From positions 1-64,000 of the forward strand of contig JAFYAS010000026.1 of NCBI GenBank assembly GCA_017540605.1: DNA of 64,000 nt, in the 5' to 3' direction. The translations under genes were made by a program, and so were the position numbers. This document shows positions 3,855-57,950 of this stretch, one piece after another. The stretch comes from Lachnospiraceae bacterium. Lineage in GTDB: Bacteria; Bacillota; Clostridia; Lachnospirales; Lachnospiraceae. Within the stretch, counting starts at the first letter, position 1. Each line of letters opens with the position of its first letter. The notes below the pieces were generated by a model. It saw only the letters and a program-made list of their open reading frames with translations, ran no database searches and was not told the origin of the DNA.

Positions 3855-6341
3855 ATGAAAAAGAGATTATTAGCGATCATATTTTTATTAACGGTAATTT
3901 TTAGTAATTATTCCTTTGTATCTGCATCAGATTGCGAGGAAGAGGAATGCGGAGATATAGCAATTGATACCTATGAGGTTTCTCCATATTATTCTGATTC
4001 AGTTATCAAGTTTCAATATGGAATCACAGAGAATTCATCCAAATGGGATCCTCGTCCTTATGGGCTTGTTTCTTCTGTAAAAAGTCAAGGCGAACTTGGT
4101 CTTTGTTGGGATTACGCAATCCAAGCATCTGCCGAAAGCTATCTTATAACCCACAATATTGCCTCTAATACAATAGATCTTTCAGAATTGTATTGTGCAG
4201 CATGTTATTATTCAAATAATAATTACGACAAAACTTTTAAAGAATGTTGTATAGACAATCCGGGATATAATGAAGTTCAATATGTAAGAAGTACAGATGA
4301 TTTAATTTATCTCGCTTTAGAATCTAATTATCCATTAAAAGATAATCCTAAAGAAGATGATATTACCGCTCCACCCGCAGATCTTTCTAATTATTCTTAT
4401 AAGATTAATAGGGCTTATAAAAAATCTCCGGCATTTATAAATGATATGAAAAACGCCATAATAACTTATGGTGGAGGGGTTGTAAGTTTCTTTACAAATG
4501 CATATACTGGTTTTTGTATTAATACTGATGATAATAAAGATAACTATCTTGACTATTTTCCGTCGTTTGAATCTGCAACCGGTGGTCACGCAGTAGAGGT
4601 GGTCGGCTGGAATGATAATTATAAAGATGGAAAAGGGTATTGGTTGTGTAAAAACAGTTGGGGAAAGGATGATTATAAATCCGGATATCTTTGGATACCA
4701 TATTCAGCAGTATTTTATGATTCTGTCTTTTTTGAAGTAATCCCCGCAAATAAATCAATTTCAATTCAAACTTCAAACATTACTGTTAAAGTAGGAGAAA
4801 GTATAGATATTAGGAACTATATTCCTGCTTGTGAAGATATTGGCACAATAGGTACAGAATTAAAAAAAGTCTCAGATTATATTTATATACCTCAATATCC
4901 CGGAAATCAAGAAATATATGTTTATGAAGAGGGTCAAGACAATTTAATAGGTGTTATAAATGTAACAGTTCCCGCCTACATACCGATAAAAAAAGAACTT
5001 ACTCTTTATTATAAGGACGAAACTAAAACTGAGATAAATAAATATCTTCCTGCCAATGTAAAAGTATACGAATACGAAGGTAATACTAGTTCATGGATAT
5101 ACGGAACAAGAGTTATCAATGTATATGGCGGAGATTGTTCTGACAGGAAGTTCAAACTCGGAGAATTTACAGTAAATATCCTCCCCAAGACAGAACTTAC
5201 TACAAATGCAAATAAAACCCACATGTTTACCAGTTCTGTAAAAGGAAATTATCCTATAGATGCTATTCTTGATGATCATAGTGTTATAGAAGATTGTGAG
5301 GTAACAAGTAATAATCTTGATGTAGCAACTATCACATGGGGAGATAAGAGGTTTCTTTATCAGCTTAAAGGTTGTGGAGAGACAAAAATCACCGTAACTC
5401 ATAAGAGTACCGGAAAGAAAGCATCATTTACCGTAAAAGTGACTCAGACTGCTCCTACACTTGATCTTACCATTTATAAAACTGAAATAAAGGATAATGA
5501 AACAACAAGCATTTGGTACAATAGTAATAAAAGTGATGTTACTTGGGAATCTTCAATCGGATCTCTTAAAAATTATGGTGGAGACGGTCTTGCAACCTAT
5601 GTGATGTTCTTTCCCGGAACTGTTACTGAAAAGACCGATGCAGTTATAACATTTATCATACCCGGTACAGATGTGAAAAAGAGTGTAACAGTAACAGTAA
5701 ATCCTACCGTGGTTACACCGGCTGTAGATCCTTCATCAAACGTTACTCCTGCTGTTACCCCTGTTGTCACACCTGCAGTCAATCCTACACCAATCGTTAC
5801 TCCTACACAAAGCGTTGTACCAACGACTACCAATACACCCGAATATGATGTTATGCCGCCTATCGCACCTAGGACTTCTGCCACCAAATCAGAGCCCGGT
5901 GGAAAATTCACTTATAAGGATGCCACTATAAAACTCGATATAGCAAATAATGGCTTTACAGTATATGGTGGAACAAGTATTCCAAAGACTTATGTAGCAT
6001 ATCAGGGTACCTCAAAGGAGACCAAACTTTATGTAACAACAATCGGTAAGAATGCATATAAGAACTCAAAGATTAAGACACTTACTATTCCGGATACTGT
6101 CACTGAGATAAAAGATGGTGCATTTGCAGGTAGCAAGATAAAGAATATCATAATTCCAAAGAGTGTTAAAAAGATTGGTAAGAACGCATTTAAGGGATGT
6201 AAAAACCTTAAATCAATAACCTTTAAGGGAAAAACAACTCTTGTAAAGAAGAGTGGTATTGCAAAGACCGTTAAGGTCACAGTACCCAAGAAATTCAAGA
6301 AGATCTATCAATGTGCACTTAAAGGATATAAAATAAAGTAA
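3855..6341 (+). CDS. Secreted papain-family (C1A) cysteine peptidase with BspA-type LRR tail
   Basis: Start ATG 3855 follows AAAAAAAGGAG; the longer upstream frame has no ribosome-binding site. The 828-aa product begins with a signal peptide (MKKRLLAIIFLLTVIF...VSA). The peptidase domain spans about residues 60-300. Its Cys84 lies in QGELGLCWDYA, His245 in GGHAVEVVGWND and Asn267 in CKNSWG, which is the complete papain triad. Next come Ig-like/Big2-type beta segments (about 300-620) and a Pro/Thr/Val-rich stalk made of VTPAV-like repeats. The C-terminal region has BspA-type leucine-rich repeats (TLTIPDTVTEIKDGAFAGS, IIIPKSVKKIGKNAFKGC). It is a probable secreted or wall-associated protease acting on host or plant protein. 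It shares its orientation with the secreted protein that follows 15 bases later. Confidence 0.88.
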   Translation: MKKRLLAIIFLLTVIFSNYSFVSASDCEEEECGDIAIDTYEVSPYYSDSVIKFQYGITENSSKWDPRPYGLVSSVKSQGELGLCWDYAIQASAESYLITHNIASNTIDLSELYCAACYYSNNNYDKTFKECCIDNPGYNEVQYVRSTDDLIYLALESNYPLKDNPKEDDITAPPADLSNYSYKINRAYKKSPAFINDMKNAIITYGGGVVSFFTNAYTGFCINTDDNKDNYLDYFPSFESATGGHAVEVVGWNDNYKDGKGYWLCKNSWGKDDYKSGYLWIPYSAVFYDSVFFEVIPANKSISIQTSNITVKVGESIDIRNYIPACEDIGTIGTELKKVSDYIYIPQYPGNQEIYVYEEGQDNLIGVINVTVPAYIPIKKELTLYYKDETKTEINKYLPANVKVYEYEGNTSSWIYGTRVINVYGGDCSDRKFKLGEFTVNILPKTELTTNANKTHMFTSSVKGNYPIDAILDDHSVIEDCEVTSNNLDVATITWGDKRFLYQLKGCGETKITVTHKSTGKKASFTVKVTQTAPTLDLTIYKTEIKDNETTSIWYNSNKSDVTWESSIGSLKNYGGDGLATYVMFFPGTVTEKTDAVITFIIPGTDVKKSVTVTVNPTVVTPAVDPSSNVTPAVTPVVTPAVNPTPIVTPTQSVVPTTTNTPEYDVMPPIAPRTSATKSEPGGKFTYKDATIKLDIANNGFTVYGGTSIPKTYVAYQGTSKETKLYVTTIGKNAYKNSKIKTLTIPDTVTEIKDGAFAGSKIKNIIIPKSVKKIGKNAFKGCKNLKSITFKGKTTLVKKSGIAKTVKVTVPKKFKKIYQCALKGYKIK

Positions 6342-6356
6342 GGGAGACGAATGATT

Positions 6357-8753
6357 ATGAAAAAGTTAATTTCTATATTGATCGCACTGTCTATAATAAT
6401 ATCTATGTTTTCTTCTGTTCCGGCTGAAGCTAAGAATGTAGTCACTAAGTATATGGTTGTTGGAGAGAAGCTGGTCATCAAGAAGGCCAAATGGTCGAAC
6501 TCAAACAAAAGAATAGCAATTGTAAAGGGTAAACAGACTATTATCGCTAAAAAGGGCGGCAAGACTACACTAAAATCAAATATTGGCAAGAAAAAACAAC
6601 AGATAAATGTTGTTGTGCTTGCTCCGAATAAAGGAACTGTGATTCTTGATATTGGGGAAACTTTTCAGATTAAAACAAGCGGTGTTTCTTATAAGAAATT
6701 CAAGTGGACTACTGCAGATAAGAAGATCATATCCGTATCCAAGACAGGAAAAGTAAAAGCACTTTCTTCCGGTAGAGCTTATATTAGTGGTACCTACAAA
6801 AACAAGTCTATATCTGTATGGGTTTTTGTGAATAAAGATGATGAAGATGATGATCTTAATGTTGATGAAAAGCCGCTGATCTTTCCTGATAAAGAAACTA
6901 CAGAACAACCTAAAAATACAATACTACCATTTACCTTCCCTACCTATGACAATACAAACAAAGGAAATCCATACGAACCAATAACAGCAGAAAATTGGAA
7001 TGATTGGGTAAGTTGGGAATTGAATTACAATCCTAATGGTGAATTTTGTAAATGGATAGCAGAAGAGCAGGCAAAGGATCCGGGTTTTTGTTTTTGGTTT
7101 AAAGATGGGAAGATTGTGAAGTATGTATCGGATAAGCCATACACAGAAAATATTACTACTGAAGAGTCATCAACCAGTAGTGAAACAACAGAAGAGGAAG
7201 ATATTCCGTACCCATATGAAGTATTACCTGAATGTACTGTAGATATTAACGGATATACATTTAAAGTAAGCGGTATTAAAGATTCAGTATATCAATATGG
7301 TGAAAAGTATGCTACTCGTTTTGATATTGACTGGTATCCGTCTTATCTAACTGATTATTGGAATAAATATACACCTAAAACTAACGGAAATGAAATAATC
7401 TTTGAAGCAAGTCTTCCAGATATGCCTTATGATGATACTTTTTATGATCTTTTAGATGAGTTTGTGAATAAACTTAAGGTTAAATTTGATGATGGAGAAG
7501 GTTTTGAGTATTATGTTAACACAAACGATACTGAATTATGGAGCACATGTCCACGTCAAAACTGGTATAACAATCCTTATTATGAACGGCAAAAATATTA
7601 CCTCCCGGATTTTGAAATGGCACGTCCATCTTTAGTACCAAGTAAAACGAAACAGGATTTTGGCTATAATATAGATATGTACTCATCGGCTATCAGGATT
7701 TATATTCATATCAATAAAAATCCTGCTAATACGCCTGTGCCGATCACTTTATCATTTGATAATAAAGATGTTTTCAGCTTTACTTTTAATAGTAATGAAG
7801 ATATCGATTTTCTTGGATTGAGTGCCTCTGAAGCTTCTTCATATTTAACTCCGGAATCAAAGGTCTGCGTAAAAGAAAATATAGTCAATGATTATAATGA
7901 TGCTATGGCTCAATTTCAGATATTGAATAAGCTAAGTGATGAAGAAATGAAGGAATTATCATCCTTTAGAAAGTTAAAAGCCTTTTCAGTTTATATCATG
8001 GGAAAATACACTTACGATGCAATGGCATGTAATACATATGCTATGTTTATGAAAAGTGTATGTTATGATTTTCTTGACATCAGAGCAATTGCATTGACGG
8101 GTAGATTTAATACTTCGACTCATGTAACCCTTTTTACCTATGATCCTATAAATGATGATACCCGTTGTTATGATGGTCAAGGCTGCAGATTAATAGGAGA
8201 TGAATATGAGGAAAGATTGAAGAGTATTATTAATGCTAAATACAATAATTTTTCATATCCTGAAGACTATAGAGAAGTGAATCTAAATGATTATTATTAT
8301 AAGGATCCTGAAGCGTTTAAAGCATTTGCCGCAAAACAGGATAAGGAGACAAGAGAGTATTTAGAATCATTTCCAAGATCAAGATCAATGGATTATTTTG
8401 ATCAAAGAATAAAAGGGTACTATGATAAATATTGTGAAATGATAGATTTTTTAGAGGGTAAAGTTGAATCATATACTCGAATGTATAATAATATCACAGA
8501 TGATACACCAAAGGAGACCAAGGAAGAAATTATTAATGAATTAGATTATTATGAAAAATGGTTATCTGAAAAACGTGAGAATATAGATTTGTCGATGAGA
8601 GATTTGATGAAGTATTATTTTGATTATACAGGTATTTGTGTAAAAGATTATAAAGAGTATATAAATAAACAAACCGATGAAAACTTAAGAAAATATCTTG
8701 AGAAAAACTTAGAATGTGTTAACGATTCGTATAAATATTCTTATTCGAGATAA
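6357..8753 (+). CDS. Secreted transglutaminase-like protein with Ig-like domain
   Basis: ATG 6357 lies 10 bases after GGGAG; an in-frame ATG at 6351 is only 4 bases away and less likely. The product is about 798 aa with a signal peptide (MKKLISILIALSIIISMFSS...AEA). Residues about 25-165 form Lys-rich Big2/Ig-like repeats (FKWTTADKKIISVSKTGKVKAL). An acidic Thr/Glu/Ser linker and a long middle region of unknown fold follow. Around residues 540-615 a transglutaminase-like core is visible: Cys558 in MACNTYAMFMKSVC, His589 in STHVTLF and Asp606 in CYDGQG, in the right order and spacing. The C-terminus is charged and helical. Family members act as cross-linking enzymes or as peptidases; which applies here cannot be told. 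It is probably co-transcribed with the papain-like gene. Confidence 0.72.
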   Translation: MKKLISILIALSIIISMFSSVPAEAKNVVTKYMVVGEKLVIKKAKWSNSNKRIAIVKGKQTIIAKKGGKTTLKSNIGKKKQQINVVVLAPNKGTVILDIGETFQIKTSGVSYKKFKWTTADKKIISVSKTGKVKALSSGRAYISGTYKNKSISVWVFVNKDDEDDDLNVDEKPLIFPDKETTEQPKNTILPFTFPTYDNTNKGNPYEPITAENWNDWVSWELNYNPNGEFCKWIAEEQAKDPGFCFWFKDGKIVKYVSDKPYTENITTEESSTSSETTEEEDIPYPYEVLPECTVDINGYTFKVSGIKDSVYQYGEKYATRFDIDWYPSYLTDYWNKYTPKTNGNEIIFEASLPDMPYDDTFYDLLDEFVNKLKVKFDDGEGFEYYVNTNDTELWSTCPRQNWYNNPYYERQKYYLPDFEMARPSLVPSKTKQDFGYNIDMYSSAIRIYIHINKNPANTPVPITLSFDNKDVFSFTFNSNEDIDFLGLSASEASSYLTPESKVCVKENIVNDYNDAMAQFQILNKLSDEEMKELSSFRKLKAFSVYIMGKYTYDAMACNTYAMFMKSVCYDFLDIRAIALTGRFNTSTHVTLFTYDPINDDTRCYDGQGCRLIGDEYEERLKSIINAKYNNFSYPEDYREVNLNDYYYKDPEAFKAFAAKQDKETREYLESFPRSRSMDYFDQRIKGYYDKYCEMIDFLEGKVESYTRMYNNITDDTPKETKEEIINELDYYEKWLSEKRENIDLSMRDLMKYYFDYTGICVKDYKEYINKQTDENLRKYLEKNLECVNDSYKYSYSR

Positions 8754-48426: not shown

Positions 48427-49689
48427 TTACTCCCTGATCTGACCGTTACCGAATATGATAAACTTGGTGGTTGTAAGTGCGTTAAGTCCCATAGGTCCTC
48501 TTGCATGAAGCTTCTGGGTGCTGATACCGATCTCGGCACCGAAGCCGAATTCGAAGCCATCTGTGAATCTTGTTGAAGCATTTACATATACGGCAGCAGA
48601 ATCCACAAGCTTTTCAAATTCCATGGCAGCAGAATAATTCTCTGTGATAATGGCTTCGGAATGACCGGTACTGTACTTGTTGATATGCTCGATGGCTTCA
48701 TCGAGGGAATTAACTATCTTTACTGAAATGATCTTCGCCAGATATTCAGTTCCGTAATCCTCTTCTACAGCCTTGGTTATAAGAGAGGAAAGCCTCTGAG
48801 CCTCTTCGTCACCTCTGATCTCACAGTTTTCTTTTGCAAGATCCTCTGCTATCATAGGGATGGCTCTGTCTGCGATATCTGAGTGAACGACCAGAGATTC
48901 GCATGCATTACATACACCGAGTCTTTGAAGCTTGGCGTTGTGAATGATGGGGATCGCCTTCTTTAGATCCGCATCTCTGTCAACATAGATATGGCAATTG
49001 CCAACACCTGTCTCTATAACAGGTACGGTGGAATTGTTGACTACATTTTTGATAAGTCCGCTTCCTCCTCTTGGGATTATCACATCGACATATTTGTTCA
49101 TCCTGCAAAGTGCACTTACCGTCTCATGGTCTGTGCTCTCAATGAGACTAACGGCATCAGGAGATATCTTCAAGGAAAGAAGAGTTTCTCTGATCACATT
49201 TACCAATGCCTTGTTGGAATTCAGGGCATCGCTTCCGCCCTTTAGTATCACGGCATTGCTGGTTTTAAAACATAATGCAAATGCGTCCACGGTAACATTG
49301 GGACGGGATTCGTAAATGATGGCAACAACACCTAAGGGAACTCTCTTTTGTCCAATCATCAGTCCGTTGGGTCTTTCCTTCATGGAGAGGATCTCTCCCA
49401 CGGGATCATCGAGTGCCACAACCTGTCTCACACCCTCTGCTATACCTTCGATCCTTTCTGTTGTCAGACGGAGTCTGTCTATCATGGCTTCGGATGTGCC
49501 CTTCGCTTTAGCTTTTTCTATATCCTTGTCATTGGCATAGATGAGATCTGCGCTGTGAGCTATAAGTGATTCGGCGATCTTAAGTAATGCCTCGTTTTTC
49601 TGAGGCTTAGTGAGAGTCATCAAAACCTTACTTGCTCTTTTTGCACTTTTTCCAATCTCAATAAGCTCTTCATTGATTACTTCGTTCAT
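48427..49689 (-). CDS. proA: Glutamate-5-semialdehyde dehydrogenase
   Basis: This 420-aa enzyme reduces gamma-glutamyl phosphate with NADPH in proline synthesis. The catalytic Cys lies in RLGVCNACESLVVHSD. GVVAIIYESRPNVTVDA and IPRGGSGLI are family-typical. Length is complete. proB, its usual partner, is not adjacent. It is the second gene of the long minus-strand operon. Confidence 0.97.
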   Translation of the reverse strand: MNEVINEELIEIGKSAKRASKVLMTLTKPQKNEALLKIAESLIAHSADLIYANDKDIEKAKAKGTSEAMIDRLRLTTERIEGIAEGVRQVVALDDPVGEILSMKERPNGLMIGQKRVPLGVVAIIYESRPNVTVDAFALCFKTSNAVILKGGSDALNSNKALVNVIRETLLSLKISPDAVSLIESTDHETVSALCRMNKYVDVIIPRGGSGLIKNVVNNSTVPVIETGVGNCHIYVDRDADLKKAIPIIHNAKLQRLGVCNACESLVVHSDIADRAIPMIAEDLAKENCEIRGDEEAQRLSSLITKAVEEDYGTEYLAKIISVKIVNSLDEAIEHINKYSTGHSEAIITENYSAAMEFEKLVDSAAVYVNASTRFTDGFEFGFGAEIGISTQKLHARGPMGLNALTTTKFIIFGNGQIRE

Positions 49690-49968: not shown

Positions 49969-50035
49969 ATACTTGTGGCAATATCATTCGTTTTAGTGTA
50001 AGATGTTAGCAGTAAATTTGAATTGGAGATTTTTT

Positions 50036-50608
50036 ATGAACGAAACAGATGAACGCTACAGCACTGCTGAGGATGCCATATATGACGCTTTCTTTTTACT
50101 TTTAAAGGAAAAGGATATTGAAAAAATCACGGTTTCAGATGTGATCAAAAAGGCCGGTATCGTTAGAAGTACCTTTTACAATCACTATGAGAATGTTCCG
50201 GCTTTGGTGAGCGCTGCTGAGGACAAGACAATAAAGGATATATTCTCGTTGATGGAAAGCTTCCATCCACAAAATGACAAGGATATGTGCCATTCATATT
50301 TCCTTGCAATCTGCAATTACACAAAGAAGAACCCCTTTTTAGCAAATCTTTTGGAAAGCCCCAGAGGCGATGCATTCTTCGAAAAGACCATCACCATGTT
50401 TCATCGATATGTTACCGATGTTTCGCATACGGTAGTCTCAAAGAAAGACTATCAGATAGAGTTCTCCTACTACATAGCAGGCGCCATTGGAAGCACCATC
50501 GGTGTCCTTCACAAATGGATCACTGAAGATTTCAAGATTCCCGCTGAGGATATAGCAGATATTCTGGCGACGATATTCTTAACAGGTGTTTTGCCGTATC
50601 TGAAATAA
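50036..50608 (+). CDS. TetR/AcrR-family regulator
   Basis: ATG 50036 (MNETDERYSTAEDAIYDAFF) follows TTGGAG and gives 190 aa. The helix-turn-helix is ITVSDVIKKAGIVRSTFYNHYEN. The C-terminal part resembles DhaS-type TetR proteins. It precedes the condensation/carrier/ligase genes by about 200 bases on the same strand, divergent from the DUF896-proA operon. It may control either neighbour. Confidence 0.88.
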   Translation: MNETDERYSTAEDAIYDAFFLLLKEKDIEKITVSDVIKKAGIVRSTFYNHYENVPALVSAAEDKTIKDIFSLMESFHPQNDKDMCHSYFLAICNYTKKNPFLANLLESPRGDAFFEKTITMFHRYVTDVSHTVVSKKDYQIEFSYYIAGAIGSTIGVLHKWITEDFKIPAEDIADILATIFLTGVLPYLK

Positions 50609-50623
50609 TAAGTCAATTATTTA

Positions 50624-50651
50624 CCGTCGAGTATTCGGCGGTTTTTCTTTT
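50624..50651 (+). terminator. Terminator after the TetR gene
   Basis: CCGTCGA (50624-50630) pairs with TCGGCGG (50635-50641) with one G-U, followed by TTTTTCTTTTT. Confidence 0.8.
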
Positions 50652-50729
50652 TATAAAACACTTTTCATCAATCTGTTCGATAAGTTTCGGTCAATTTTTC
50701 TCGATGTGTTCATTAAGTCTTTAGGGGTA

Positions 50730-50758
50730 TTGTAATCATTTTTCAAATCTGCTATGTT
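50730..50758 (+). promoter_or_regulatory. Possible promoter of the condensation-ACP-ligase operon
   Basis: TTGTAA (50730-50735), 17 bases, TATGTT (50753-50758) lie 47 bases before the first start codon. Each box matches the consensus at four of six positions. Confidence 0.4.
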
Positions 50759-50805
50759 CTCACTTGTCAAGCAAACCAGTAAAAGATTTTTGGAGGTTAT
50801 GAAGG

Positions 50806-52191
50806 ATGAAAAAAGAGTACGAACTCACCGCTGCACAGAACATGCATTATCAGTGGATCAGGGAATACAAGACACAGCAGGTGTCAGGTGTTTCAATCGT
50901 GGCATCGATAAAGTCACCACTTGATTTTGGCCTTTTGAAAAAATGTATTGAACTCGAAACCGAGAGATACGGATGTTTGAGACTGCAGTTTACAAAGCCT
51001 GATAAGAAGGGAAATATCAAGCAATATATAGTTGATAAATATAAGGCTGATATTCCTGTAAAAGACTTTACCGGCATGTCCTTAAAGGAGGCCGATGATA
51101 TCATGCAGAGCATGGCTTACGAAACTCTTGACGGAGATGATCGTCCCATGTGCGAGATCATGATGGTAAGACTTGCTGAGGGCTACAACGGATTTTTCAT
51201 CCATATGGATCACAGACTTATAGATTCCTGCGGTATCGTGGTTATGGTAAATGACATCATGCAGCTTTATACACATTATCGCTTCGGTGCTGAATATCCT
51301 CAGGATCTTGCCGACTTTGAGAAGGTTCTTGAAAATGATCTAAAAAAGGCCAACAGCGAAAAGCGCTTTGCAAAGGACAAGAAGTTCTGGGATGATCAGC
51401 TTGATGCTCTTGGCGAGCCTCTTTACTCAGATATTCAGGGAACCAAGGTTTTGGAGGCCGCAAGAAAGAAACACAAGAATCCAAAGCTTCGTGCGGCTGA
51501 TATCGAAAGAAAGGAGCTCTTTGTTGCAGTCAAGGATTATGTACTTGAGCCGGATCCCACAAAGTGGCTGATGCACTTTTGTATGAACCATCAGCTGTCT
51601 ATGACAAACCTTTTACTTCTTGGCATACGTACCTATCTTCAAAAGGTAAATGACGGCCAGGAGGATATCACCATAGAGAACTTCATATCAAGGCGTTCAA
51701 CTCATGACGAATGGACCTCAGGCGGAAGCAGAACCATCATGTTCCCCTGCCGTACCGTGATAAGCGAAGATACAGATTTCCTTTCGGCAGCCTACGAGAT
51801 ACAGAATATACAGAACAAGATCTATATGCACAGCAATTATGATCCTGCTCTCATTGTAGAGGAAATGAGAAAGAGATATAAGACACCTGCTGACACTTCT
51901 TATGAGAGCTGCTATCTTACCTACCAGCCTATGCCGGTTCGTATGGACAATCCTTTTCTTAAAGATATTCCCATGCATTCAAAATGGTTTGCCAACGGCG
52001 CAGCTACAAAGAAGATGTATCTTACTGTATCTCATACAGAAAACGGCGGTATGAACTTCTCATATCATTACCAGACAAAATGCCTTACAGAAAAGGATAT
52101 GGAGCTTCTTTACTACTACATGATGAGGATACTATTTAAGGGTATAGCAGAACCGGATATGACTATCGGTGAGATAATCAAAGCAGTTTAA
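50806..52191 (+). CDS. Condensation-domain-like acyltransferase
   Basis: This 461-aa protein has the chloramphenicol-acetyltransferase-like fold of NRPS condensation domains and alcohol acetyltransferases. It starts MKKEYELTAAQNMHYQWI, as free-standing C domains do. The HHxxxDG active site reads DHRLIDS (in FIHMDHRLIDSCGI): the catalytic second His and the Asp are kept, and the first His and the Gly are changed. It probably joins an acyl or aminoacyl group held on the adjacent carrier protein to an amine or alcohol acceptor. GGAGG lies 9 bases before ATG 50806. It is the first of a three-gene operon. Confidence 0.82.
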   Translation: MKKEYELTAAQNMHYQWIREYKTQQVSGVSIVASIKSPLDFGLLKKCIELETERYGCLRLQFTKPDKKGNIKQYIVDKYKADIPVKDFTGMSLKEADDIMQSMAYETLDGDDRPMCEIMMVRLAEGYNGFFIHMDHRLIDSCGIVVMVNDIMQLYTHYRFGAEYPQDLADFEKVLENDLKKANSEKRFAKDKKFWDDQLDALGEPLYSDIQGTKVLEAARKKHKNPKLRAADIERKELFVAVKDYVLEPDPTKWLMHFCMNHQLSMTNLLLLGIRTYLQKVNDGQEDITIENFISRRSTHDEWTSGGSRTIMFPCRTVISEDTDFLSAAYEIQNIQNKIYMHSNYDPALIVEEMRKRYKTPADTSYESCYLTYQPMPVRMDNPFLKDIPMHSKWFANGAATKKMYLTVSHTENGGMNFSYHYQTKCLTEKDMELLYYYMMRILFKGIAEPDMTIGEIIKAV

Positions 52192-52224
52192 AATATAAAA
52201 CAATTTATAAAGGAGAATAAAACA

Positions 52225-52461
52225 ATGGATAGAACACTGGAATTTAAAGAGCTTATAGCACAGTATTGTGATGTAGCAGCAGAGGATCTTACAGAGGATA
52301 TGCGTTTTAGAGAGGACCTTGATTTTAGCTCTCTTGGCTTTATGTCATTTCTCGGAGATATCGAGGATACATTTGATGTAGAGCTTGATCAGGAGCAGGC
52401 ACTTAAGGTTATAACTGTAGGCGATGCACTTGATATGTTCAACGATCTTGTGGAGGCGTAA
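52225..52461 (+). CDS. Acyl/peptidyl carrier protein
   Basis: This 78-aa acidic four-helix protein has the phosphopantetheine attachment Ser (about residue 36) in DLDFSSLGFMSFLGDIED. Its position between a condensation-like protein and an adenylating enzyme shows it is dedicated to this pathway, not to general fatty-acid synthesis. AAAGGAG precedes the ATG. No phosphopantetheinyl transferase gene is in the window. Confidence 0.88.
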   Translation: MDRTLEFKELIAQYCDVAAEDLTEDMRFREDLDFSSLGFMSFLGDIEDTFDVELDQEQALKVITVGDALDMFNDLVEA

Positions 52462-52466
52462 AATTT

Positions 52467-53993
52467 ATGAAGACTATAGCTGAGATCTGGGATCACGCAG
52501 AAAACTCATATCCTGAACTTGCTGCAGTGAAATGGCTTGAGAAAAAGGAAATAAAAGAAAGAACCTATAAAGAGCTTGGAATAAATATTTCTCTTGTGAA
52601 GAAGGGCTTAAAGGCAGCAGGCTTTGAAGGCTCACATATCTCCTTGATAGGTACATCATCTGTATGGTGGATGGAGGCATATCTTGCTATCACCACAGGA
52701 AACAATATCGCAGTACCCCTTGATGCAGGACTTCCGGTTGAGGATCTTTTAGAGCTCCTTAATCGTGCTGATTGCGAGGCGCTTTTTATCAGTCCAAAGC
52801 TTAAGGGGATGATCGATCAGGTGAAAACCGAATGTCCCAAGATCAAAAAGATATGGTTACTTCAGGAGGATGATATTGAAGGCTTTGAAACGATAGAAGC
52901 TTTGAAGGTATTAGGCAAGGACAAAGAAAACGTAACTTCCTCTTCACCTGATGATGTGGCAACTATTATCTATACTTCGGGAACGACCGGAAAAAGCAAA
53001 GGCGTTATGCTTTCCGAGAGAAACCTTGCTGAAAATGTAGCCAACGTTCCTTTTTATTCCGAGCCCGGCTGTCAGCTAATGACTGTTCTTCCCATACATC
53101 ACTGCTTCTGTCTTGTGATGAATTGGCTCATGGGCTTTTCCCTTGGTGCATCTATATGTATCAACGATTCATTTATGCATATGGTAAGAAATATGTCCAT
53201 TTATAAGCCAAAGGTTATGCTGATGGTTCCTTTGATGATCGAGACTATCTATAAGAGACTTGCAGCTGCTGACCAGAGCATTCCCAAGAAAGCTGTAGCA
53301 GACAGCGTATTTGGCGGTAATCTGGAGATCATATTTACCGGTGGCGCACACCTTGATCCCTTCTATGTGGATAGCTTAAAGGAATATGGCGTATCCGTGC
53401 TTGAGGGCTACGGAATGTCAGAATGCTCTCCTGTAATAAGCAGTAATATGCCGGATGATCACAAGGTAGGATCCATAGGAAGACCTTTAAAGAATGCCGA
53501 GATAAGATTTGAAAACGGAGAGATACTTGTAAAAGGCTCAAGTGTGATGAAGGGCTACTACAAGATGCCCAAGGAAACAGAAGAAACTCTTAAGGATGGC
53601 TGGCTTCATACCGGAGACAAGGGCTACATTGACGAGGATGGTTTTTTGTTTATCAATGGTCGTGTAAAGAATCTGATCATCCTTTCAAACGGCGAGAACA
53701 TTTCTCCTGAAGAGATAGAGAACAAGCTGGCTTTGGAAGCCTTGGTGGGTGAAATAGTTGTAACCGGTGAGAACAATGGACTTACAGCAAGGATTTATCC
53801 CGATCAGGAGGTAGTAGCCGCAAAAGGCTTATCAGGTGATACATTAAAAGCAGAGCTTCAGGCAGCGATTGATAAATTCAACGTAGACCAACCTACATAC
53901 AAGAAGATCGTCGGCCTTGTAGTAAGAAATAATCCTTTCCACAGGAATGCAACAGGAAAGATTAAAAGAACTGAGGCTGAGATAGACGATTAA
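52467..53993 (+). CDS. AMP-forming acyl/aminoacyl ligase (adenylation enzyme)
   Basis: This 508-aa ANL-superfamily enzyme has A3 IIYTSGTTGKSKGVML, A5 YGMSECSP, A7 LHTGDKGYIDEDG, A8-like INGRVKNLIILSNGENISPEEIE and the A10 Lys in NATGKIKR. It activates a carboxylate with ATP and presumably loads it onto the carrier protein encoded 5 bases upstream. Whether the substrate is a fatty acid, aryl acid or amino acid cannot be read from the sequence. No thioesterase or reductase domain is fused. Confidence 0.9.
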   Translation: MKTIAEIWDHAENSYPELAAVKWLEKKEIKERTYKELGINISLVKKGLKAAGFEGSHISLIGTSSVWWMEAYLAITTGNNIAVPLDAGLPVEDLLELLNRADCEALFISPKLKGMIDQVKTECPKIKKIWLLQEDDIEGFETIEALKVLGKDKENVTSSSPDDVATIIYTSGTTGKSKGVMLSERNLAENVANVPFYSEPGCQLMTVLPIHHCFCLVMNWLMGFSLGASICINDSFMHMVRNMSIYKPKVMLMVPLMIETIYKRLAAADQSIPKKAVADSVFGGNLEIIFTGGAHLDPFYVDSLKEYGVSVLEGYGMSECSPVISSNMPDDHKVGSIGRPLKNAEIRFENGEILVKGSSVMKGYYKMPKETEETLKDGWLHTGDKGYIDEDGFLFINGRVKNLIILSNGENISPEEIENKLALEALVGEIVVTGENNGLTARIYPDQEVVAAKGLSGDTLKAELQAAIDKFNVDQPTYKKIVGLVVRNNPFHRNATGKIKRTEAEIDD

Positions 53994-54018
53994 ATAAAGC
54001 GAATTCTTCACACAATAT

Positions 54019-54060
54019 AAATAAAGTGACAGGTTGTTATGGCCTGTCACTTTATTTTAT
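54019..54060. terminator. Bidirectional terminator
   Basis: A 15-bp stem (54019-54033 with 54043-54057) is followed by TTTAT. It separates the + strand ligase operon from the minus-strand hydrolase, whose stop codon touches the right arm. Confidence 0.9.
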
Positions 54061-55049
54061 TCACATCTTCCAAAAAACTCCATAACCTTCTCCTCATAAT
54101 ACTCCGGTGCAGTATAATAACAACACAGATGTCTTGCCTCAGGGATCAGGTGAAGCTCCTTTTCGGTCTTTGTGATATGAAAGTTTTTTATAGTATTTTC
54201 AGGCCACACATAGGTATCGTCTTCTCCGTGAAAAAAAAGTATGGGAAGCCTGTTCTTTTCGAGGGCTACAGAGGTATCCGTCTCCTTCATGGCAAAGCCG
54301 GCGAATATACGACAGAACAGATCAACTCGTAGTAAAAGCAGTTCTATGTAGTGAAGATGAAACCATCCTGATGCGATATCCCTTAGCTGCTGCTTCATGG
54401 AATGGAATGCGCAATCTGCGATAAGCCCTTTTACTTCCTTGGGAAGAGCATGACCTGCCGCAAGTATCAAAGAGGTCGCTCCCATGGATTGACCGTAAAG
54501 GTAAATGGGTAGCTTTTCTACATTCTCTTCATTGAGCCTTCCAATCCACTCGAGCATATCATACTGCTCTCTCGCTCCAAAGGTTATGTATTTTCCTTCG
54601 CTCTCACCGCAGCATCTTTGATCTACGAGCAAAAGACTTGAATCATGCTCATGAAGATATTTAGCAATAGCCGCCACACTTCCAAATCTCGTGCCTCGAT
54701 AGCCGTGACACATAAGCACAATTCGCTTAGGATGTTCACAAGGATAATACGATGCGTGAAGTTTTAGTCCCTCAGCACTTCTGATATACCAATCCTTCAT
54801 GGGTTGATTCAAGCACCATGCTTTGGTTTCCTCATATTCCTTTTCATATCTGTATCTTGGATGATTGACCTCCGTGTGTTTTAGCTTAAACCATTTTTTA
54901 CTGATCTTTTTTCTATCAGATGATTTCTTCTTTCCGGCATAGGTACAGAATTTAAAAAACGGATAACCGATGGCAACAAAGCCACCGGCACTAATTGATG
55001 CAAAAAAGCCAACCTCACGGAGCAGGCTGTGATTTATATGTTTGATCAT
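54057..55049 (-). CDS. Alpha/beta hydrolase
   Basis: This 330-aa protein has an N-terminal hydrophobic segment (about 10-35), probably a membrane anchor, and then a hydrolase domain. The oxyanion region is MCHGYRGTRFGS, the nucleophile Ser lies in YGQSMGA, Asp in FHGEDDTYV and His in EARHLCCYY. It resembles BAAT/YqkD-type esterases of unknown substrate. Its start overlaps the preceding cyclo-ligase gene by 4 bases, so they are cotranscribed. Confidence 0.9.
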   Translation of the reverse strand: MIKHINHSLLREVGFFASISAGGFVAIGYPFFKFCTYAGKKKSSDRKKISKKWFKLKHTEVNHPRYRYEKEYEETKAWCLNQPMKDWYIRSAEGLKLHASYYPCEHPKRIVLMCHGYRGTRFGSVAAIAKYLHEHDSSLLLVDQRCCGESEGKYITFGAREQYDMLEWIGRLNEENVEKLPIYLYGQSMGATSLILAAGHALPKEVKGLIADCAFHSMKQQLRDIASGWFHLHYIELLLLRVDLFCRIFAGFAMKETDTSVALEKNRLPILFFHGEDDTYVWPENTIKNFHITKTEKELHLIPEARHLCCYYTAPEYYEEKVMEFFGRCE

Positions 55050-55597
55050 TTAATTGTCCTCTTTTCGGTAATGATCATATCAGGTTTTATATCATAGGAA
55101 TCAGCCTCCACCTTGTCGACAATCTGAACCTCATACGCCAAAGCAATGGTATTTTCCACATCATGCTCGAACAGATATTTATCATAATATCCTCCACCAT
55201 AGCCTATACGATTTTTAGTTTCATCAAATGCAACTCCCGGCATGATAACAAGTGCATTGTCTAAGTTCACTCTTTCATCACCGGTTGGTTCAAGAATATC
55301 AAAGAATCCGGGCTTAAGCTCTGACATATCATCAAAATAATAAAAATCCATTACACCATCCGATATTCTCGGAGCCGCGATCCTCTTTCCGTCACGGATA
55401 CAGGCCTTTATAAGGGGCATGGTATCCACCTCTTTATTGATGCTTATATAAAGACATAGGGTATCGGCAGCTTTATATTCGTCAGTTTTAGTAACATTAT
55501 CACAGATGATTGAAGATAGCTTTTTTACAACATCATCGGCAAGACCTATCCGTCTGTCCCTTATTTCTCTTCTTGTAAGTATCTTTTTTGGTTGCAT
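55046..55597 (-). CDS. 5-formyltetrahydrofolate cyclo-ligase
   Basis: This 183-aa enzyme converts 5-formyl-THF to 5,10-methenyl-THF with ATP. The ATP/Mg-binding signature RIGYGGGYYDKYL and LVIMPGVAFDETKNR are present, with a basic N-terminus (KKILTRREIRDRR). It lies 3 bases after the cobD gene, at the end of the cobalamin operon. Confidence 0.94.
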   Translation of the reverse strand: MQPKKILTRREIRDRRIGLADDVVKKLSSIICDNVTKTDEYKAADTLCLYISINKEVDTMPLIKACIRDGKRIAAPRISDGVMDFYYFDDMSELKPGFFDILEPTGDERVNLDNALVIMPGVAFDETKNRIGYGGGYYDKYLFEHDVENTIALAYEVQIVDKVEADSYDIKPDMIITEKRTIK

Positions 55598-55600
55598 AGC

Positions 55601-56653
55601 TTAACCTCTATTTTCCAATACATGCTTTATGGTATTCAACAAAATATCGTTCTCTTCTCTCTTTTTGATACCTATCCTAAAGTAACCTCCAAGACCCTTT
55701 AAGCCGTTCAGTTCATTTAAGCTCCTGATAAGGATCTTTTCCTTGAGTAAAAGCTCATCAAGGTTTATATCCGAACTAAAAAGCAGGAAACAGGTATCAG
55801 AATCCATGACCTTCATTCCAAGCTCTGAAAGTCCTTTTTTCAAATACGGCCTCTCAGTCCTTAAGATATCTCTCCCTTTATCCAGATAAGAGGTTTCTTT
55901 AAGGCAGGCAATTCCAGCATACTCTGCTATAGTACTTATATTCCATTCTGGAAGCATATAGTTTATCATGTCACAGGTTTTAGTATTACTGCACATAAGA
56001 TATCCGAGTCTGATTCCAGGCATAGAATAAGCCTTTGTAAATGATCTGATGATCATAAGATTGTCATATTTATCCATCAGATTGATGCAGGAATTCTTTT
56101 CGCCCTCATCGGTCAATTCGATATAGCTCTCATCAACAAGAACAGGCTTTTCGTATTCCTTACAGTATGAAATGATATTCTCCAAAAGAGAAGGTGATAT
56201 GAGCTTTCCTGTGGGATTGTTGGGATTGACTATGATCACAGCACTTCCACCAATTTTTTCTATGCAATCAATGATATCCTCATTGATGGTAAAGTCATGC
56301 TTAACATCAAGGAGATGATAGGTGATCGCCACATTCTTACTCATTGCCGCATAACGATAGCCGTCATAAGAAGGCATGGGTATCAAAACATTTCCTCTGA
56401 TGATCCTTGAAAAAACAGCAGAAATAAGCTCAGATGCACCGTTTCCACAGACCACACATCTTGGATCAATGCCATGATAAGCGGCAATAGCTTTTTTCAG
56501 CTTTCTATGCAGAATATCAGGATAGTTCACTAAAAGCTTAAGTGAATCATCAATCGCCGATACAATACAATCGGGAACCCCCATGGGATTTAAGTTCACA
56601 GAAAAATCATGCTCTATTTCCTTGCTATATATGTCACCGCCATGTAATGTCAT
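55601..56653 (-). CDS. cobD: Threonine-phosphate decarboxylase (CobD/CobC type aminotransferase fold)
   Basis: This 350-aa PLP enzyme makes (R)-1-amino-2-propanol phosphate for the cobalamin nucleotide loop. The start LHGGDIYSKEIEHDFSVNLNPMGVP is typical of this group. The PLP Lys lies in IIRSFTKAYSMPGIRLGY, with the NPNNPTGK motif upstream. Histidinol-phosphate aminotransferase is the closest alternative, but the cob gene neighbours decide for CobD. Confidence 0.93.
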   Translation of the reverse strand: MTLHGGDIYSKEIEHDFSVNLNPMGVPDCIVSAIDDSLKLLVNYPDILHRKLKKAIAAYHGIDPRCVVCGNGASELISAVFSRIIRGNVLIPMPSYDGYRYAAMSKNVAITYHLLDVKHDFTINEDIIDCIEKIGGSAVIIVNPNNPTGKLISPSLLENIISYCKEYEKPVLVDESYIELTDEGEKNSCINLMDKYDNLMIIRSFTKAYSMPGIRLGYLMCSNTKTCDMINYMLPEWNISTIAEYAGIACLKETSYLDKGRDILRTERPYLKKGLSELGMKVMDSDTCFLLFSSDINLDELLLKEKILIRSLNELNGLKGLGGYFRIGIKKREENDILLNTIKHVLENRG

Positions 56654-56664
56654 AAGAACCCCCT

Positions 56665-57630
56665 TTAAGTTAAAAATCCAACCTCAATACAACCTATTAA
56701 AAGACAAAAAAGCAAGAATACCTGAGATGTCTTATACATAAGTCTTACAGATCGGATGATATCATCTCTTTCAACCGGTCTTCTCTCATCACCTATGGTA
56801 GGCTTTTCGACAAGCTCACCAAAATAATAATTACTTCCCCCAAGCTTTATTCCAAGAGCCCCGGCGCAGGCTGCTTCGGTCTGTGCGGAATTAGGACTTT
56901 TGTGATTCCTTCTGTCCCTTTTCCATATATGCCATGCATTCTTCATATCGTAGCCTGTACCGCAAAGAAGACAGGCGAAACACATAAAGATCGCCGTGAG
57001 TCTTGATGGTATGAAATTCAGTATATCATCAAGCTTTGCAGCACATTTTCCAAAATCAGCATATCTTTCATTCTTATAGCCTACCATGGAATCCATAGTA
57101 TTGACGGCCTTATATATATATCCTCCAACAGGTCCGAAAAGCGCTAAGGCAAACATGGGTGCCGTTATACCGTCGGAGGTATTCTCAGCTACGGTTTCTA
57201 CAGCGGCTCTTATAACGCCCTCCTCACTAAGCTCTCTAGTGTCTCTTCCGACTATCCTTCCTACTGCCTGCCTTGCGTCAATCAGAGTTTTTTCCTTTAG
57301 GGCAAGGTGCACGTTGTAGGCCTCATCACGAAGATTTCTCATAGCCAGAGCCTGCCAGGTAAGGATAGCCTCGAGAAAGCATCCGAATACCTCATGCATA
57401 CTGTATGCGCCAATAAGCAGCAAAAAGACGCACACTGCTGTTAAAAATATAACGATCAAGACCATGATAAGACCATTGAATACCTTATGATTTCCTTTGT
57501 TCATCCCTTTTTCAAGCCCTGAGATAAGAGCTCCTATCATCCTTACGGGATGGTATATCCATTCGGGATCGCCAAGCACAAGGTCTATCACAAAGCCTGC
57601 AAAAAAGGCGATCCAATGATATCTAAGCAT
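56665..57630 (-). CDS. cbiB: Adenosylcobinamide-phosphate synthase CbiB
   Basis: ATG 57630 (MLRYHWIAFFAGFVIDLVLGDPEW) shares one base with the stop of the short CobU-like gene (TAATG), favouring this start over the frame to 57669. The 321-aa membrane protein attaches aminopropanol (phosphate) to adenosylcobyric acid. HPVRMIG, VAENTSDGITAPMFAL and the MDSMVGYKNERYADFG motif are conserved. Confidence 0.95.
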   Translation of the reverse strand: MLRYHWIAFFAGFVIDLVLGDPEWIYHPVRMIGALISGLEKGMNKGNHKVFNGLIMVLIVIFLTAVCVFLLLIGAYSMHEVFGCFLEAILTWQALAMRNLRDEAYNVHLALKEKTLIDARQAVGRIVGRDTRELSEEGVIRAAVETVAENTSDGITAPMFALALFGPVGGYIYKAVNTMDSMVGYKNERYADFGKCAAKLDDILNFIPSRLTAIFMCFACLLCGTGYDMKNAWHIWKRDRRNHKSPNSAQTEAACAGALGIKLGGSNYYFGELVEKPTIGDERRPVERDDIIRSVRLMYKTSQVFLLFCLLIGCIEVGFLT

Positions 57631-57950
57631 TACTTTATCCTCATTCCTACCCCGCAAAATACACGCCATACCTCACTTGCATTTTTTGCAAGCTCACACA
57701 GGTATCTGCCGTATTCCTCGCGATAAGATCTTTCTTCTTTGTCTATGGGAACAATCCCATTTCCGATCTCGTTGCCAATGATGATCAGCTGCTCGTTTTT
57801 TAGAAGCTTATCATTTATCTCATCTATCAGAGATGCTTTATCCGTTTTAAACCTTTCCTCAATATCTGTGATGAATTTTGCTTTGTCTCCAAAATGATCT
57901 CTTGCAAAATCCTTCTTACCCTGAAAGGCTCCGCCCAAAACAAGTATCAT
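57630..57950 (-). CDS. Short CobU-like protein lacking the central region
   Basis: This 106-aa protein aligns with both ends of CobU but not the middle. The N-terminal MILVLGGAFQGKKDFA corresponds to the P-loop but has Lys where Ser/Thr should follow GK. The C-terminal IIIGNEIGNGIVPIDKEERSYREEYGRYL is a canonical CobU end. The segment with the guanylylated His is absent. A normal-length CobU is encoded at 58739-59269. It may be a helper subunit or a decaying duplicate; its good coupling to cbiB argues that it is translated. Confidence 0.75.
   Translation of the reverse strand: MILVLGGAFQGKKDFARDHFGDKAKFITDIEERFKTDKASLIDEINDKLLKNEQLIIIGNEIGNGIVPIDKEERSYREEYGRYLCELAKNASEVWRVFCGVGMRIK

Follow-up and report, generated by a model that had tools for sequence, protein, structure and literature searches.

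Fatty acid amide (FAA) systems consist of separate adenylation (A), acyl carrier (ACP) and condensation (C) proteins, the last of which bears a (D/H)HxxxD(S/A/G) motif and takes free amines as acceptors (PMC13142362). One of the FAA clusters that Chang et al. 2021 found in gut Clostridia is the oleoyl aminovaleric acid (Oaa) pathway of Coprococcus eutactus (per PMC13142362), and the crystal structure of its condensation enzyme, OaaC, has been reported (Singh et al. 2026, PMC13142362). The reconstituted OaaC, ACP and A trio formed oleoyl, palmitoleoyl and lauroyl amides of aminovalerate and γ-aminobutyrate (GABA) in vitro (PMC13142362). In addition, Blautia and Coprococcus isolates carrying the related CTA operon made more N-acyl ethanolamines, free fatty acids proved toxic for the majority of tested Lachnospiraceae, and amines restored growth of B. 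wexlerae in the presence of oleic acid (PMC13060934). The N-acyl amines of bacteria are hormone-like lipids with activity at host receptors, and they may shield the bacteria from fatty acids. Here we analysed a locus at positions 50036-53993 of a 64,000-nucleotide stretch of DNA (hereafter, the window; contig JAFYAS010000026.1) from a Lachnospiraceae bacterium (GCA_017540605.1), for which a sequence-only reading had described separate condensation, carrier and AMP-ligase genes with a TetR regulator, and had recognised no characterised pathway with this exact set.

We found four plus-strand open reading frames (ORFs) with intact core motifs within this interval by ORF calling, encoding a TetR-family regulator, C, ACP and A. 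The last three stood in a row as claimed, and matched Pfam Condensation (2.1e-32), PP-binding (1.9e-9) and AMP-binding (8.7e-61), respectively. In a sequence search of solved structures, C matched PDB 12kh over its full length (E 1.1e-170, 52% identity over 460 residues), and the next match, to PvdL, stood at 2.9e-5. We infer that 12kh is OaaC, given its molecule name, its length, its two chains and its content. In a tree built from FAA-type C proteins, the window C grouped with OaaC at 98% support in the Shimodaira–Hasegawa-like approximate likelihood ratio test (SH-aLRT); OaaC fell just outside the close clade of the window C, that is, as its outgroup, in this one quick tree supported by SH-aLRT values only. 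The motif of the window C, DHRLIDS, differs from the HHxxxDG of canonical condensation domains and had been called altered in the sequence-only reading; it is indeed present, beginning at residue 135, but it is not aberrant, since DHxxxDS is the published motif of the OaaC clade (PMC13142362). Homology to OaaC thus accounts both for this motif and for the seemingly unknown pathway, which is the FAA/CTA pathway, already reconstituted in vitro and with its condensation enzyme crystallised (PMC13142362; PDB 12kh), and it supports the proposal that the free-standing set makes an acyl amine or amide.

The C, ACP and A genes are separate and adjacent, with the carrier gene between C and A as in the CTA operon of Blautia wexlerae and other members of the same family (PMC13060934), and C lies within the FAA condensation clade. 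We therefore read the locus, with a probability of about 0.93, as a Lachnospiraceae FAA/CTA biosynthesis locus of the OaaC-like DHxxxDS type with C-ACP-A chemistry; this figure applies to the three-gene chemistry and not to the hydrolase and TetR additions discussed below. It shares with the Oaa system (OaaC/OaaACP/OaaA) the free-standing C, ACP and A, the motif and three basic residues of C, whereas it differs in belonging to a separate clade and in its linked TetR and hydrolase genes. Starter condensation domains of lipopeptide nonribosomal peptide synthetases (NRPSs) likewise have an acyl donor and the condensation fold; however, they lie within multidomain NRPSs, where the donor is typically an acyl-CoA and the acceptor an amino acid bound to a carrier (PMC13142362).

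The A protein retained the core motifs YTSGTTGKSKG (169), GYGMSE (314), HTGD, NGRVKN and NATGKIKR (494). In the ACP, the attachment residue Ser36 lies in DFSSLGFMSF, where Ser takes the place of the usual Asp of DSL, and ACPs of both clades described below have an unusual (S/T/N)S(L/F/Y)DFM-like attachment motif replacing DSL. A 4'-phosphopantetheinyl transferase gene (PF01648) is present in the genome; by these motifs and this gene, A is predicted to be catalytically complete and the ACP to be phosphopantetheinylatable. The ACP was single, and no second carrier domain was found among the ORFs and Pfam matches in or adjoining the operon. The ACP and ligase resembled general ACP and acyl-CoA ligase models at scores below the cut-offs, as would be expected if they belonged to a D-alanylation set, a housekeeping fatty-acid synthesis set or a peptide NRPS, possibilities of which the sequence-only reading had raised the first two. 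However, none of the NCBIfam matches listed for ACP or A reached a curated equivalog cut-off, C is a close OaaC homologue, and no other NRPS domains lie nearby, so that we rejected these assignments as having a negligible probability. The only other condensation domain of the genome lies on a different contig (C51, 28937-29839), in a C-A NRPS-like protein with an open frame of 1224 aa that is unrelated to the operon.

We compared the locus with relatives, as the sequence-only reading had proposed. Specifically, 80 named loci were fetched by their C proteins (74-86% identity to the window C), and a family sample of 397 genomes contained 52 in which an FAA-type C was found at an E value of 1e-50 or lower. 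ACP and then A followed C in the same order in the 80 named loci wherever the contig was long enough, and about 115 Lachnospiraceae loci, mostly from rumen or gut, had this order with few exceptions; the three genes thus co-occur in dozens of genomes. The C proteins formed two clades, a close one (54-86% identity to the window C), in which DHxxxDS was present in 88 of 89 relatives, and a distant one (about 35-40%), which mostly had DHxxxDA. As separate observations, two loci (L086, ~6073-7461, and L087, ~6027-7430) had FAA-type C genes 39-45% identical to the window C and OaaC without an adjoining ACP, ligase or hydrolase gene, and are possibly orphan C enzymes borrowing a carrier from elsewhere. 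Two others (L116 and L117), with very divergent C proteins and the orders C-A-ACP and ACP-A-C, possibly represent condensation operons of another kind. A record labelled Alistipes sp. (L074, JAMPBI010000171.1) also contained an FAA operon typical of Lachnospiraceae (80% identity), and here a mis-binned contig is more likely than transfer to Bacteroidota.

By analogy with the characterised systems, the product likely consists of a small amine acylated with a long-chain fatty acid. R137 (within the motif), R187 and K403 are common to the window C and OaaC and are nearly always replaced in the distant DHxxxDA clade, and their retention would suit a carboxylate-bearing acceptor, for example GABA or 5-aminovalerate. 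On these residues as read from the sequence, an ω-amino acid is a plausible amine, and we put an acidic acceptor of this type at about even odds. There is nearly the same chance that the enzymes are as described but that the rumen clade uses ethanolamine, an aromatic biogenic amine or a polyamine, given that OaaC is only the outgroup of the window clade at 52% identity, and that carriers of related operons have been tied to ethanolamides and acyl dopamines (PMC13060934); the shared basic residues argue against this, as far as sequence positions can.

Just outside the interval of the sequence-only reading, we found an alpha/beta hydrolase gene that it had missed. As this gene accompanies the set in most relatives, the minimal unit is probably larger than the three genes. 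The protein matched PF12146 (7.6e-21) and has the fold with a GxSxG, Asp and His triad. Ser188 and His307 were invariant, and Asp278 nearly so, in the hydrolases of both clades. Its AlphaFold model (predicted local distance difference test score of 92) shows a long helix at the N terminus (residues 7-36), which probably anchors the protein in the membrane, and then the hydrolase fold. The best fold matches by Foldseek were the Pyrococcus esterase Pf2001 (5g59), the thioesterase DcsB and monoglyceride lipases (MGLL), and the sequence matches agreed with the esterase and the monoglyceride lipases. We prefer, as an inferred role, the supply of free fatty acids from glycerolipids, and treat the link to the pathway as a lead. 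The alpha/beta hydrolases also include the type II thioesterases of NRPS systems, and the DcsB match could likewise suit an editing or turnover enzyme that clears the ACP of stalled acyl groups or hydrolyses the amide product. We consider this less likely, because the best sequence and fold matches and the Pfam family point to esterases and monoglyceride lipases, and the predicted N-terminal helix suits lipid substrates.

The window hydrolase is 50-64% identical to those of close relatives, where 56 of 84 informative loci have the gene immediately before C and in the same orientation; in the distant clade this arrangement was found in all 28 loci (L088-L115). Over the 397 genomes, presence of the hydrolase and of C was strongly associated (41/11/26/319, Fisher p about 6e-28, phylogeny uncorrected). 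If the hydrolase and TetR genes had no role in the pathway and stayed next to it by chance and synteny, loci without them would be expected, and in fact 24 of the 84 close loci had no hydrolase in reach and 11 of the 52 operon-bearing genomes had none at 1e-40. Nevertheless, this explanation is improbable in view of the association just described, the adjacency of hydrolase and C in two clades only 35-40% identical in C, and the absence of any other conserved gene in the flanks. Flank clustering recovered no other recurrent gene, including an amine source or transporter, and the few recurrent clusters look like frames antisense to operon genes.

The window TetR matched TetR_C_8 (1.9e-9) and, just below the curated cut-off, TetR_N (6.7e-5); an alternative in-frame ATG is at 50003. 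It is 58-82% identical to 52 orthologues adjoining the operon in relatives, and has no close paralogue in the window genome. In 71 of 75 informative close loci, its gene lies downstream of, and convergent with, the operon; in the distant clade a TetR-like gene is usually divergent and upstream of the hydrolase (22 loci, weak TetR scores). By sequence, it matched DhaS/DHSK_reg structures (4mk6, 8.7e-5; 2iu5, 1e-3), but its score against TIGR02366, the DhaS-type activator model, was 34.5 bits (1.9e-8) as compared with a curated cut-off of 129 bits, suggesting that it is a distant relative of the DhaS-type activator only. Pneumococcal FasR/SPV_0647, which controls fatty acid saturation and supports fatty acid gene expression, is predicted to resemble the same DhaS structures (PMC12647141), although the similarity of the window TetR is weak. 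Since DhaS is annotated as an activator and FasR supports fatty acid genes, activation by the window TetR is as possible as repression.

Upstream of C, we found a conserved block whose core element scored above the cut in 74 close-relative loci (window included), as a rule ~80-150 bases before C. It is kept between the hydrolase and C where the hydrolase precedes C, which suggests that C probably has its own promoter region. The order in relatives is a palindrome, TATCAAACA-N13-TGTTYGATA, followed by GGTCAATTTT...TTAAGTC-N5-GGGG. The palindrome (at least 15 of 18 arm bases) was present in 47 of 79 close loci (window included; ~60%) and in 0 of 1580 shuffled upstream regions; as the shuffles preserved base composition only and the pattern was derived from the tested loci themselves, this comparison indicates conservation and not function. 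The window genome has a single copy, and a search of all close loci found no second copy near tetR, leaving autoregulation through the same operator unsupported. Because of a hairpin after tetR and this conserved region upstream of C, tetR and C-ACP-A are probably two transcription units. The half-site pattern of the palindrome recurs 33 bases further downstream, but we rejected this repeat as a second operator because its arms do not match each other. We also set aside an RNA-element reading of the block, since pairing at the N5 spacer was inconsistent on inspection, and preferred protein-binding DNA; there was no Rfam match in or around the region upstream of C. A sigma-70 consensus scan returned no promoter upstream of C, and a conserved TGTGnTAA-like stretch downstream of the block is only suggested as a candidate -10. 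TetR, the one regulator nearly always nearby, is the obvious candidate, and predicted, binder of the block.

Taken together, A would activate a free long-chain fatty acid with ATP and load it onto the phosphopantetheine arm of the ACP, and C would then pass the ACP-bound acyl group to a small, freely diffusing amine and so release an N-acyl amine. This chemistry is taken from the work of others on homologues and set upon the homology, motifs, gene set and order, promoter block and transferase gene found here. The membrane hydrolase may serve this pathway by acting on acyl esters or amides, its likeliest task being the release of fatty acids from glycerolipids, and TetR may use the conserved block to control the C-ACP-A promoter, with fatty acids or acyl thioesters as the probable signal. 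The physiological task of the pathway in this strain is probably to detoxify free fatty acids, and host-active lipids would arise as a by-product; we give detoxification the leading role because of the N-acyl ethanolamine levels of Blautia operon carriers and the amine rescue of B. wexlerae, and both detoxification and acyl amine production were proposed for the CTA operon (PMC13060934). We tentatively suggest, at somewhat less than even odds, a five-gene cassette in which a fatty-acid-liberating membrane lipase, an amine-capping C-ACP-A trio and a lipid-sensing TetR acting via the conserved block form a dedicated detoxification circuit widespread in ruminant and gut Lachnospiraceae.

Several points weigh against this picture. 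In nearly a third of close loci C lacks a neighbouring hydrolase gene, indicating that the hydrolase is not indispensable, and about 40% of close loci lack the palindrome, though the block downstream of it is kept. The fold matches of TetR (EthR, MtrR, FadR, FasR and DesT) are generic to the fold and do not identify a ligand, and its link to the promoter, drawn from position, is a lead. Finally, amine and chain preference may differ from those of OaaC at this sequence distance.

The pathway itself is already known, and the locus is an additional member from a rumen-type clade; we do not claim the hydrolase, TetR or promoter block as new. The two studies (PMC13142362 and PMC13060934) cover human isolates and three genes only, the latter with a 70% identity cut-off. 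Their main texts do not mention the hydrolase or TetR (Chang et al. 2021 was outside this comparison), and no description of the promoter block was seen in the parts of the two articles consulted. Close relatives of the locus were found largely in genomes from the rumen and other herbivore guts, habitats in which the toxicity of fatty acids to bacteria matters in practice, and the conserved hydrolase, regulator and promoter block offer handles on where the fatty acids originate and how production is switched on.

The features of the locus are listed below.

Table 1. Features of the C-ACP-A locus and its borders in the window.
Feature	Positions	Strand	Details
proA	48427-49689	-	ORF calling
TetR-family regulator (TetR_C_8, weakly DhaS-like)	50036-50608	+	ATG with GGAG ribosome site
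Intrinsic terminator-like hairpin and T-tract 3' of tetR	50623-50650	+	hairpin itself 50623-50642
Palindrome, candidate operator	50652-50682	unstranded	TATAAAACA-N13-TGTTCGATA
Conserved promoter-region block	50686-50733	+	cGGTCAATTTT...TGTTCATTAAGTC-N5-GGGGTATTG
Free-standing FAA-type condensation enzyme (C), 461 aa	50806-52191	+	DHRLIDS at residues 135-141
Acyl carrier protein (ACP), 78 aa	52225-52461	+	attachment Ser36
AMP-forming acyl:ACP ligase (A, adenylation protein), 508 aa	52467-53993	+	AMP-binding, core motifs
Terminator-like hairpin between convergent A and hydrolase genes	54014-54061	unstranded	-22.6 kcal/mol, z = -8.1
Alpha/beta hydrolase (PF12146, esterase/monoglyceride-lipase-like), probably membrane-anchored	54057-55049	-	triad S188-D278-H307

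The plus-strand set is flanked on both sides by minus-strand genes, proA and the hydrolase gene, in agreement with the island noted in the sequence-only reading. The window has the order TetR> C> ACP> A> <hyd (hyd, hydrolase), whereas the common order is hyd> C> ACP> A> <TetR. Inverting the C-ACP-A block once would turn the former into the latter, and we regard such an inversion as the simplest account of the island; no intermediate was seen among the loci. The genome holding the window is a 2.85 Mb draft in 64 contigs (95% complete), with best matches mostly to Lachnospiraceae and largely to rumen genomes, and C is single-copy in it. Upstream of the hydrolase on the minus strand (55046-57950), there is a 5-formyltetrahydrofolate cyclo-ligase-like gene with a 4-base overlap, followed by cobalamin-pathway-like genes, as named by reading their translations; the window hydrolase may be co-transcribed with these genes.

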